DNA of 64,000 nt. Origin: Desulfovirgula sp. Its GTDB lineage: Bacteria; Bacillota; Desulfotomaculia; Desulfotomaculales; Desulfovirgulaceae. Below the pieces are notes generated by a model that worked only from the letters and a program-made list of their open reading frames with translations, was not told the DNA's origin and searched no databases. Shown here one piece after another: positions 3,263 to 7,367 of this stretch. The DNA lies in the NCBI GenBank assembly GCA_020725525.1, contig DYEX01000158.1, positions 1-64,000 on the forward strand, given 5' to 3'. Both the position numbers and the translations under genes were made by a program. Numbering within the stretch: the stretch's first letter is position 1; each line of letters starts with the position of its first letter.

Positions 3263-4036
3263 TTGGCAAATAAAAAAGAAACCGGTGTCCGGGGGAAACG
3301 CCGGCCCCGGCGCCGCCGGTCAAAGTTCGTTTTACCTGCGGCACCCTTACAACTGGACCCCTTTCAGGAAGAAGCCATAGCCGCGTTGCTGGATGGATAT
3401 ACCGTCCTGGTAGCTGCTCCCACGGGAACCGGTAAGACCCTGATTGCTGAAAAGTTGCTGGAACATATATTAGCCGGGGGTAAAGGGGCGGTATATACAT
3501 CACCCATTAAAGCTTTGTCCAACCAGAAATACCGGGATTTCGGGCAGCTTTTCGGCCCGGAGAGGGTGGGGTTAATTACCGGCGACCTTTCTATTAATGA
3601 AAGGGCTCCCTTACTGGTCATGACCACGGAAATCTTTCGCAACTGGTGCTTTGCCAGCCCCGGGGAACTGGAGCACACCTCCCACGTCATTTTTGACGAA
3701 ATGCACTATCTGGACGATCCGGAGCGGGGTACGGCCTGGGAGGAAAGCATCATCTTTGCCCCGCCCCACATGAAGATTTTAGGTTTATCCGCTACCGTAC
3801 CCAATATACAGGAAATTGCCTCCTGGATGGCCGAGGTGCGGGGAGATGTGGTCAAAGTGATTGAAGAAAGGTGCCGGGCCGTTCCCCTGGAGATCTCCTG
3901 GATTGCGCCCGGGGGCGATATCCTGGATGAGGAAGAGGCCCGCATGGAAATTGCCGAAAGGCAGGAAATTCGCCGCTGGCGCCGTCATTACTGGAACGAT
4001 ATGATGGCTGCCGGGCGGGAGGAATTTGATTTTTAG
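3263..4036 (+). CDS. Ski2/HelY-like DEAD-box helicase, N-terminal part ending at in-frame TAG
   Basis: N-terminal RecA domain of a Ski2-type RNA helicase. It has the Q-motif-like LDPFQEEAI, Walker A APTGTGKT, Walker B DEMH and motif III SAT. The first 30 residues are very basic (RGKRRPRRRRSK). The TTG start at 3263 follows the promoter and a weak AAAGGGCGG site. Translation stops at TAG 4034-4036; the same frame continues without a shift through RWYESLAAIF into the second helicase half (4052-5608). The gene is thus one reading frame split by a single amber codon. As written, this 257-aa piece lacks motifs IV-VI and should not act as a helicase alone. Alternatives are a fresh pseudogene, amber read-through, internal re-initiation or a base error. 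Confidence 0.85.
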   Translation: MANKKETGVRGKRRPRRRRSKFVLPAAPLQLDPFQEEAIAALLDGYTVLVAAPTGTGKTLIAEKLLEHILAGGKGAVYTSPIKALSNQKYRDFGQLFGPERVGLITGDLSINERAPLLVMTTEIFRNWCFASPGELEHTSHVIFDEMHYLDDPERGTAWEESIIFAPPHMKILGLSATVPNIQEIASWMAEVRGDVVKVIEERCRAVPLEISWIAPGGDILDEEEARMEIAERQEIRRWRRHYWNDMMAAGREEFDF

Positions 4037-4051
4037 AGGTGGTATGAATCT

Positions 4052-5608
4052 TTGGCCGCCATATTTTCCAGTCCAACCTGCGTTGAGGTCATTGAAGCTA
4101 TTCAGGACTACCTGCCGGCCCTTTATTTTGCCTTTAGCCGCGGACGGACCGAGTTGCTGGCGGAAGAACTGGGCCGGGAGTGGGATTTTCTTACTTCCGG
4201 GGAGAAGCGTTCCGTCCGGTGGATGATTCAGGAAGCGGAGGAGAATAACCCCGGCCTTTTCGGTCCCCGGCGCCAGAACCTGCGCCGCCTGCTGCTTCAG
4301 GGCATTGGCTACCACCATGCCGGCCTGTCGCCGCTGCTCAAGGATCTGGTGGAAAAACTGTATGAATCCCGGCTGATTTATGTTCTTTTCTGTACGGAAA
4401 CCTTTGCTGTAGGGGTTAACTTTCCCGCTGCCAGTACGGTTTTTGACGCCTGCCGCAAGTGGGACGGCCAGGAGTTCCGTCCCCTTTTAAACCGGGAGTT
4501 TTTCCAGATGGCGGGCCGGGCCGGCCGGCGGGGATATGATCCGGTAGGGCGGGTTTTCGTGCGCATTGACGAGCGTTTCCCCGAACAAACCGGCTTTTAC
4601 CGGGAGGACGAGGTGGAACCGGTCCGGGGCAGGCTCACCATCTCGCCCAATACAGTCCTGAGCCTTTTGCACTGGAAAACCGATGCAGAAATTCGTTGCC
4701 TGCTGGAAAAAAACTTATCCGTCTATCAAAGCAATAAAGAAAGCCGTCAGCTCCGCCAGGAAGTGCACAGGCTGGAAGAAAAGGCGGCGGAACTGGCCCG
4801 GTGTTTTTGCCCCGACCGGGGCCAGCCCTGCTGCGAACTTTACCGGGTCAAACTGCGTAAAGAGCTGAACCAGCTTAAGAAAAGCAAGCACCGCAATCGC
4901 GCGGACAGCAAGCTGCGGCGGCAGGAGATTCAAATCCTGTTGCAAAAGGGACGTAAAAAGTGCCGCTACAAGGTATGCCTGGACGCGGCCAAAAAGGTGC
5001 GCCGGCTGGAAGAAAGAATCCACCTGCTGCACAAGCGTTTGAAGCAACTGGAAAAACACTCCCGGGATTACGTCCGGGATTTTGAGAATGTGTGGGGTCT
5101 CCTGGAAAAACTGGGTTATGTGCAGGGCCGGGAGCTGTTGCCCCGGGGGAAATTCGCCCTTTACGTGCACGTGCAGGAAATACTGGTCACCGAGCTGGTT
5201 TTCTCCGGTATTCTTTTGGAGTCTCCTCCGGTGGAGGTGGCCGCCATCCTGGCCGGGGTGGACTACCAGCCCGGGCGGGATGAACAGGTAATCCCACCAC
5301 CCTTCTCCCTGGAGAGAGTGGAAGAACTGCGCCGCTTTTTGTTCCAGAGCGGGGTTCCGGAGCACTTTTGTCTCTGGTCGCCCCTGCCCGCTGCCCTGGC
5401 GGCGGCCTGGTACGAAGGGGCTACCTTTGACCAGCTTTTGGGCATGACCAACCTGCAGGAAGGGGACATCTTTTCCATCCTGCGCCGGGAAATTGACCTG
5501 CTGCGCCAGATTGAAAGGGCCGCCGGGGAAGACCGCGTCCTGGCCGGCCTGGCCCGGGAACTGCGCCGGCGGCTGGACCGGGACGAGGTGGCCGTAGTTG
5601 GGGTATAA
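4052..5608 (+). CDS. Ski2/HelY-like helicase, C-terminal part after in-frame TAG
   Basis: Same frame as the preceding half, starting just past its TAG. It carries the second RecA domain with GVNFPAASTVFD and motif VI QMAGRAGRRGYD, which in this family closes the ATP site with the Walker motifs of the first half. Further on is a Cys-bearing coiled-coil arm (CFCPDRGQPCCEL near residue 250, KCRYKVC near residue 307) and an all-helical C-terminal domain. AGAGGTGG at 4035-4042 lies 9 nt before TTG 4052, so separate initiation is possible. The coding sequence shows no other damage over 1.5 kb, so the interruption is either recent or tolerated. Confidence 0.85.
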   Translation: MAAIFSSPTCVEVIEAIQDYLPALYFAFSRGRTELLAEELGREWDFLTSGEKRSVRWMIQEAEENNPGLFGPRRQNLRRLLLQGIGYHHAGLSPLLKDLVEKLYESRLIYVLFCTETFAVGVNFPAASTVFDACRKWDGQEFRPLLNREFFQMAGRAGRRGYDPVGRVFVRIDERFPEQTGFYREDEVEPVRGRLTISPNTVLSLLHWKTDAEIRCLLEKNLSVYQSNKESRQLRQEVHRLEEKAAELARCFCPDRGQPCCELYRVKLRKELNQLKKSKHRNRADSKLRRQEIQILLQKGRKKCRYKVCLDAAKKVRRLEERIHLLHKRLKQLEKHSRDYVRDFENVWGLLEKLGYVQGRELLPRGKFALYVHVQEILVTELVFSGILLESPPVEVAAILAGVDYQPGRDEQVIPPPFSLERVEELRRFLFQSGVPEHFCLWSPLPAALAAAWYEGATFDQLLGMTNLQEGDIFSILRREIDLLRQIERAAGEDRVLAGLARELRRRLDRDEVAVVGV

Positions 5609-5759: not shown

Positions 5760-5888
5760 TTACTTACGCAGCTCTTCGGGCACCTCCGGCTGGTACCACG
5801 TAACCCAACTGGCGGGATAAATACCCGTAGCAGCCATTACCATGGCCACAGTAGCTACGACCCCCAAGAGCCAGTGCTTAAGCCGCAT
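5760..5888 (-). CDS. agrD: AgrD-like cyclic peptide autoinducer precursor (42 aa)
   Basis: Propeptide that AgrB would cut and cyclise into a secreted signal. It begins MRLKHWLLGVVATVAMV, a basic then hydrophobic membrane-binding leader. It ends in YQPEVPEELRK, matching the conserved acidic tail PEVPEEL of AgrD-type precursors. The stretch between, TGIYPASWVTW, has no Cys; the Ser would be the ring-closing residue, giving a lactone rather than a thiolactone, as known for a few staphylococcal peptides. AAGGAGG precedes ATG 5888, and the first 11 nt overlap the end of agrB. The exact ring size and N-terminal cut are not readable from the sequence. Confidence 0.85.
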   Translation of the reverse strand: MRLKHWLLGVVATVAMVMAATGIYPASWVTWYQPEVPEELRK

Positions 5889-6528
5889 TGTTCACACCTC
5901 CTTTACCTGGTATGAGTATAGAGTGCAGCCGGCTCAGGAAAACGTCCAGCCATTCTATAAAGCGGTAGCCGGCCGGAGTAACGGTAACGGCTTGAAAAGC
6001 CAGGCCCAGGGCGCTGGCGGCCAGCAGGTCCTCCCGCAGGGAGAGGAGCCAGGCCGCGGCCAGGTAACATAGGGGTACCAGCAGGGAAATTATTTTCAGC
6101 ATTCGGCGGTAGCCTTCCCGGGTGATTGGCTTGGCCGGGGTATCCGCCGGCGCCCAAATTAGGGCAACTATAATGGCGAAAAGTGCCGCAGCCAGGGCCA
6201 TTTCCGTACCAGGGACGTTACTTTCCCCCAGCCAGCGGGCCAGAAAACCCAGGCCTGTGAAGGTGGTTAGAGAGCCGATCAGGCAACGGTAATAGGCGGT
6301 GCAGTGGGCCCCCCCGGCCGCCAGGCGGAAAGCCACACTGGCCAGCACTACCGCGGCAACCTGGGGGAAGATGCCCAGCAGCAGGGGTATAGTTACAAAA
6401 CAAACAAGTTTCACCACTGCGCCCAGGAGCAGCTCCAGGCCGTAGGCCATCACCGCCACCCGCTCCTCCTGCTGCAGTTCTTCGCCCAGCCAGGAGGCAA
6501 TTCTCTGGGCCAGGTTGTGGATCATCAC
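5878..6528 (-). CDS. agrB: AgrB-like autoinducer-processing membrane peptidase
   Basis: Cysteine endopeptidase that removes the acidic tail of the AgrD-like propeptide and helps form the cyclic signal. The motif RLAAGGAHCTAYYRC places His75 and Cys82 with the same seven-residue spacing as the catalytic His77/Cys84 of Staphylococcus aureus AgrB. Five to six hydrophobic helices follow. Length 216 aa is normal for the family. Its start overlaps the stop of the kinase gene (ATGA) and its end overlaps agrD by 11 nt, so all three are translationally coupled in the order kinase-agrB-agrD. Confidence 0.9.
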   Translation of the reverse strand: MMIHNLAQRIASWLGEELQQEERVAVMAYGLELLLGAVVKLVCFVTIPLLLGIFPQVAAVVLASVAFRLAAGGAHCTAYYRCLIGSLTTFTGLGFLARWLGESNVPGTEMALAAALFAIIVALIWAPADTPAKPITREGYRRMLKIISLLVPLCYLAAAWLLSLREDLLAASALGLAFQAVTVTPAGYRFIEWLDVFLSRLHSILIPGKGGVNNAA

Positions 6529-7367
6529 TCTCCACCTGCCTTGGGTAGGGTTACCGTAAAGATGGTGGGCGGGGAGGTTAGCCGCACCTGCCCACCGTGC
6601 TGTTCCACTATCTCCCGTACAATGGCCAGCCCCAGGCCTCTGTTTTCCCCCTTGGTAGAAAAGCCGGGCTCAAAAATCTTTTCCCTTATATCCTCTCTTA
6701 TTTCCGGGCCGGAGTTGCCTACCGAGAGGATATAGCTTTGCTCGTCTTCTCTTATTTCCATCCTGACGTAACGGTCCCTGGTCGCTAAAAACATCACCGC
6801 TTCCATGGCGTTGTCCAGCAGGTTGCCCAGTATCCGGTTCAGGTTGTGGGGGCGCATGGTCAGCTTGCCCAGGTCGCTTTCGACGAGCAGGCCGAAGCTG
6901 ATGTTGCGGTTGGCCGCCAGGGCCGCCTTTTGCTGGATCAGGGCGGCCACCTCGGGCTGCCTCAGCCGCAGGGTTTGGGAAAGAATGCGGATGTCCCCCG
7001 TCACCTCGGCCAGGTACTCCCGGGCGCTTTCCAGCTTGCCCAACTGCAGCATGCCGTACACGGCCTGCAGGTGGCTGATGAAGTCGTGGCGCTGGGCCCG
7101 GATGTTGCGGATCATTTCCTCCAGGTCCTGGATGTGTTTGGCCTGTTGGCGTATTAAGTTGTCCTGTTCTTCTAAAACCAGTGACTTTCGTAATAAAATA
7201 AACCCTAAGACAGTATTACCAAAAATTACTATGTCAACTATTACTATCCAACCCAGTGGAATAGAAGCATTGAAATAAACCAGGTACTGAGTAAAAAGAC
7301 AAATAAGTAATGCCTGGCCCAAACTAAAAACTGCCATTAAATAATTTGGAAATGATAGTGTGCTCAT
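6525..7367 (-). CDS. Membrane sensor histidine kinase, Spo0B/AgrC-like
   Basis: Two N-terminal hydrophobic helices (about residues 9-32 and 40-60) lead into a coiled linker. Then comes the phospho-acceptor motif RHDFISHLQAVYGML with His94, of the Spo0B/AgrC/CitA type. A GHKL ATPase domain follows, with NLLDNAMEA near residue 183 and GLGLAIVREIV near 250. Its place directly before agrBD, and 2 nt after a multi-spanning membrane protein, makes it the likely receptor kinase for the cyclic peptide. Canonical AgrC has six to seven membrane helices in one chain; here the extra helices may come from the separate upstream protein. No response regulator gene is next to it. Confidence 0.86.
   Translation of the reverse strand: MSTLSFPNYLMAVFSLGQALLICLFTQYLVYFNASIPLGWIVIVDIVIFGNTVLGFILLRKSLVLEEQDNLIRQQAKHIQDLEEMIRNIRAQRHDFISHLQAVYGMLQLGKLESAREYLAEVTGDIRILSQTLRLRQPEVAALIQQKAALAANRNISFGLLVESDLGKLTMRPHNLNRILGNLLDNAMEAVMFLATRDRYVRMEIREDEQSYILSVGNSGPEIREDIREKIFEPGFSTKGENRGLGLAIVREIVEQHGGQVRLTSPPTIFTVTLPKAGGE

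Follow-up and report, generated by a model that had tools for sequence, protein, structure and literature searches.

A Ski2/Mtr4-like helicase encoded by two adjacent genes, divided between the RecA domains, in the class Desulfotomaculia

The ATP site of SF2 helicases is shared between the two RecA domains, and to our knowledge the motors of these enzymes are as a rule single chains in which the two domains are tethered. The SF2 RNA helicases of the Ski2/Mtr4 type (Dob1, FRH) are all made as one chain, with the order RecA1, RecA2, winged helix, helical bundle/DSHCT. The helicase described here follows the same order but is specified by two genes. It lies in a stretch of 64,000 nucleotides from Desulfovirgula sp., referred to below as the window. 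Like it, a helicase gene divided in two is found in Nanoarchaeum equitans and Nst1, whose split proteins are reported to include reverse gyrase and a "large helicase-related protein", NEQ003-409 (PMC3655853, PMC1175954).

Translation of the window showed positions 3263-5608 to be one frame with a single internal stop, the TAG at 4034-4036, and no other damage across the 2.3 kb. The original prediction had pointed to this lone in-frame TAG and had seen Walker motifs ahead of it and motif VI behind it; both observations were borne out. The elements of the locus are as follows, the names Walker A, motif II and motif VI being those that we take to apply to the conserved blocks.

3263-4036, plus strand: gene of the N-terminal subunit, 257 aa, RecA1 (DEAD/DExH), start TTG, stop TAG at 4034-4036
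3416-3439, plus strand: Walker A/motif I, APTGTGKT, almost wholly invariant in alignment A2 (29 rows)
3695-3706, plus strand: motif II (DExH), DEMH, with D, E and H invariant in alignment A2
4034-4036, plus strand: TAG that ends the N-terminal subunit, within the variable RecA1-RecA2 linker
4037-4042, plus strand: AGGTGG, the Shine-Dalgarno-like site of the second gene, separated by 9 nt from the TTG at 4052
4052-5608, plus strand: gene of the C-terminal subunit, 518 aa, start TTG, stop TAA
4505-4534, plus strand: motif VI, QMAGRAGRRG, almost wholly invariant in alignment A1 (28 rows)
4808-4978, plus strand: four cysteines of the C subunit (C253, C261, C304 and C309) in a coiled insertion, invariant in alignment A1 (28 rows)
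5147-5590, plus strand: DSHCT domain (PF08148, 2.9e-18)

In two relatives (G002 and G004) the open part of the frame begins only near the position matching the TTG at 3263. Pfam searches placed a DEAD domain (1.8e-26) upstream of the TAG, and Helicase_C (4.2e-7) together with DSHCT downstream of it. The C subunit contains RecA2, the winged helix and helical bundle with DSHCT, and the Cys4 insertion. The four cysteines could form a metal (zinc) site; similar ones are present in some single-chain relatives and absent from others. This coiled insertion, which is shorter, presumably replaces the arch domain of the eukaryotic enzymes. The AGGTGG sequence would pair with the 16S tail at a duplex energy of -9.8 kcal/mol. 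A ribosome site with a TTG had been announced 9 nt past the stop: site and start do exist, but 15 nt lie between the stop and the TTG, and 9 nt is the distance of the TTG from AGGTGG. No terminator-like site was found on the plus strand between the two genes, nor a second intact helicase copy in the organism's own genome, where the downstream half matches only itself.

To examine the fold, the two chains were joined and modelled as one with AlphaFold (TAG read as Q, 30 sequences). The model had a pLDDT of 88.4 and a pTM of 0.84, values that concern the fold and not the association of separate chains. In a Foldseek comparison of this model with the PDB, ranks 1 to 34 were taken by Mtr4, FRH and Ski2 structures, with Hjm/Hel308 appearing from rank 35; the best PDB matches of the joined sequence were SKI2W (2e-88) and Dob1/Mtr4 (5e-87), FRH also being among the closest. 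Model confidence falls to about 70 in two blocks, residues 251-270, around the cut. This dip, taken with the fold, therefore places the cut in the connection between RecA1 and RecA2, so that Walker A and the DExH motif belong to the first chain and motif VI to the second. A tolerant linker between the RecA domains was where the original prediction had located the TAG, and both the linker comparison and the model agree. The protein has the features of a Ski2/Mtr4-like helicase: a DExH-type RecA1 with Walker A, a RecA2 with motif VI, a DSHCT domain and, in the joined-chain model, a fold nearer to Mtr4/Ski2 than to Hel308/Pol theta. Its domains are spread over two genes instead of residing on one polypeptide, in a family that is defined by domains and fold.

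The class to which the window belongs comprises sulfate-reducing and syntrophic bacteria (Desulfofundulus, Desulfotomaculum and kin). A helicase match was obtained in 47 of 60 related genomes and in 90 of 113 genomes of the class. Reading the locus at the DNA level in 89 of these 90 (all but G092) revealed 79 helicases split at the same place between the RecA domains, 8 single chains and 2 incomplete loci. Near the cut, 77 of the 79 split loci have a start for the second chain; the remaining two (G082 and G096), both fragmentary, were counted as split all the same. In all but one of the 77 (G008), this start lies 15-25 residues before a conserved LPALYF motif. Shine-Dalgarno energies of -5 kcal/mol or better accompany 76 of the 77 chosen starts versus 24.5% of 1880 internal start codons, the score of the chosen starts being inflated relative to this control because the best of several candidates was taken. 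Within the family, AGGTG is kept in all eight aligned members, amid flanking bases with indels. Half-by-half comparisons involving seven family members (13 in total, leaving aside the C half of G007, where the compared stretch crosses a stop) gave dN/dS values of 0.075-0.117 in both halves, which indicates that both are under strong purifying selection.

Cultured holders of the split form include Desulfofundulus thermosubterraneus, D. australicus and D. thermobenzoicus, Desulfotomaculum copahuensis, Desulfocucumis palustris, Sporotomaculum syntrophicum, Desulfotruncus alcoholivorax and arcticus, Desulfoscipio geothermicus, Desulforadius tongensis, Desulforamulus aeronauticus and Pelotomaculum terephthalicicum. 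The helicase of Pelotomaculum propionicicum is a single chain of about 1220 aa. A scan of named genomes, which overlaps the class and phylum surveys so that the two sets of counts are not independent, yielded 80 loci. The 52 with at least 50% identity in the C half comprise 45 split forms, 6 single chains and 1 incomplete locus; of the other 28, 25 are single chains, 1 is incomplete and 2 (L214 and L215) seemed split. These last two were rejected as splits outside the class, the apparent breaks being runs of N in the records and not stops. Two families of the class (f7 and f17) lack the helicase in every listed genome (E 1e-30); therefore, the helicase is dispensable in part of the class. Very divergent split helicases, whose two halves show about 50% and 29% identity, were seen in other class families (G016, locus L042; G011, locus L039). 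Too divergent to be placed, they possibly represent a second subfamily.

We consider it very probable that the locus is a bicistronic operon whose product is an obligate two-subunit Ski2-like RNA helicase, and that the split arose by one ancestral fission, later reversed by two re-fusions. A true two-subunit helicase was among the readings offered by the original prediction, and it is the one upheld, since the class has maintained the split, the second gene is preceded by a ribosome site of its own and purifying selection acts on both halves.

The history of the split was sought outside the class and in trees. In a scan of the phylum, 69 of 299 genomes gave a match; 60 of these lie outside the class. 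Reading 21 of the outside loci at the DNA level showed a single chain in every case; the other 39 outside genomes were judged from the match table alone, where two (G354 and G369) are uninformative and one (G224) has its break within the C-terminal part, not between the RecA domains. On a tree of 104 loci, the split and single-chain labels need a minimum of three changes, and the starred branches force three; the same number was obtained with 103 loci, after removal of the long-branch G016 (G006, G011, G064, G082, G096 and G103 are absent from both trees). All 82 rows from the class fall on one side of a branch with a support of 100, and grouping the split rows as one clade was rejected (p-AU 2.7e-56). 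Three changes combined with single-chain outgroups suggest one fission and two re-fusions, the latter in G020 and in a Pelotomaculum-related clade. One ancient fission in the ancestor of the class, followed by these two re-fusions, would thus fit the tree. In 75 split loci the N chain extends by a median of 43 aa beyond a (V/I)PL motif, and the C chain contributes about 18 aa ahead of LPALYF; as the linker between the two motifs measures 52-61 aa in single-chain forms, it was cut rather than removed. The single-chain forms nested within the class might also be taken to mean that many independent fissions struck one weak point, with no ancestral fission and no re-fusion. We regard this as unlikely: several breaks at the same site would be needed within one clade, and the tree wants only three changes.

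Other readings do away with the second subunit as a separate product. Programmed frameshifting or ribosome hopping might join the two frames in most relatives, many of which show short distances and overlaps between them. The second start lies between -86 and +244 nt from the end of the first stop (median +7 over the 77 loci), and the second gene overlaps the first in 22 loci, by exactly 4 nt in 5 of these. However, with a spacing that runs from overlap up to 244 nt, the shift needed would be 0, +1 or +2 depending on the relative, even inside one genus: among the 79 split pairs the second gene is in frame 0, +1 and +2 relative to the first in 15, 36 and 28 cases, respectively (an uneven distribution, although evenness is no fair expectation for related loci). 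Nor could a fixed slippery site be detected by eye in the family alignment. Such a mechanism is thus most improbable.

Still less can be said for programmed read-through, or decoding of the amber codon as pyrrolysine, as a means of making one long protein. Both sides of the TAG are in the same frame in the window, and pyrrolysine systems were mentioned in the original prediction as occurring in some relatives. Frame 0 is found in 15 of the 79 split pairs, so the in-frame halves of the window are not special, and 64 of the 79 pairs are out of frame. The in-frame amber is not conserved in orthologues: the first stop can be TAG, TAA or TGA, all nine combinations of frame and stop codon were found, and 9 of the 15 frame-0 pairs have two or more in-frame stops between the halves. 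Small indels separate the first stop from the second start among eight aligned family members; these would destroy a read-through product in four of the five congeners while leaving a separate second gene untouched. No PylS above the cut-off was found in the genome (best score 28.7 bits versus 178.15), whereas a control search put 1 of 14 genomes over it. Among the 32 Rfam tRNAs read with ARAGORN, the anticodon CTA does not occur; this list is incomplete, several standard tRNAs being absent from it. Given the variable frames and the lack of a PylS above the cut-off, read-through was rejected. Equally hard to credit is a fresh nonsense mutation or sequencing error that made a recent pseudogene in one genome: it would suit a single in-frame TAG with no further damage in 2.3 kb, but all five congeners examined (G001-G005) are split, in differing frames of which only that of G003 is frame 0, 79 of the 89 class loci are split too, both halves have a dN/dS of about 0.1 and the ribosome site is kept. 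Thus, the TAG at 4034-4036 is a conserved gene boundary, neither damage nor recoding.

In the two-subunit helicase, the first gene would provide the RecA1 domain with the P-loop and DExH motif, and the second, with translation starting at a separate ribosome site just past the first stop, the RecA2, winged helix and helical-bundle/DSHCT domains. Both chains would be made side by side from one mRNA, if the genes are co-transcribed, and would assemble into an Mtr4-like ring. With the ATP site lying between the RecA domains, neither chain is expected to work alone, and the heterodimer would be obligate. Its substrate is presumably RNA, unwound in the 3'-5' direction.

The RecA1 chain is longer in several sister families, by an upstream extension of about 450-550 aa with HTH_17 (helix-turn-helix) domains. 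In 16 of 60 related genomes a region of about 500 aa precedes the RecA1 chain in the same frame, and Pfam identified HTH_17 in three examples from relatives (L084:971-3358, L085:1105-3588 and L088:1154-4816); among the 60 relatives scanned, none from the window's own family has the extension. More speculatively, and as an idea that we put forward as possible rather than probable, a class-wide obligate heterodimer of the Ski2/Mtr4 type would have a single ATP site completed only when the chains meet, so that the divided motor may be regulated by assembly, and the RecA1 extension could bring the ATPase half to a target separately from the RNA-gripping half.

On its downstream side the helicase locus is adjoined by an agr-type quorum-sensing cassette on the minus strand (5760-7367), with an AgrD autoinducer peptide (TIGR04223, 5e-14), an AgrB-like protein and a sensor kinase. 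Beside the cassette, at 5628-5613, lies a terminator-like hairpin. By eye, the AgrD peptide has no cysteine.

A natural split between RecA domains, kept across a class and apparently re-fused twice, offers material on the role of the tether in ATP hydrolysis and unwinding, and on how a gene fission becomes fixed. It also carries a warning for annotation: such an in-frame stop can readily be mistaken for a pseudogene or for read-through, and only relatives reveal the gene boundary. Literature searches among open-licence papers found no published description of this split. As a variant, a Ski2/Mtr4-like helicase in two-subunit form, divided between its RecA domains across a bacterial class, is novel. 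The single-chain homologues of other Bacillota (e.g., those of Limnochordia, L211, L216 and L220) are 34-44% identical in the C half and have a linker of the same position and length; unlike the pair in the window, they form one open frame of about 640-835 aa. In the split reverse gyrase the halves are reported to be non-contiguous and the helicase to be divided from the topoisomerase (PMC1175954); by contrast, the halves in the window are adjacent, and the cut, found class-wide, falls between the RecA domains of one motor.
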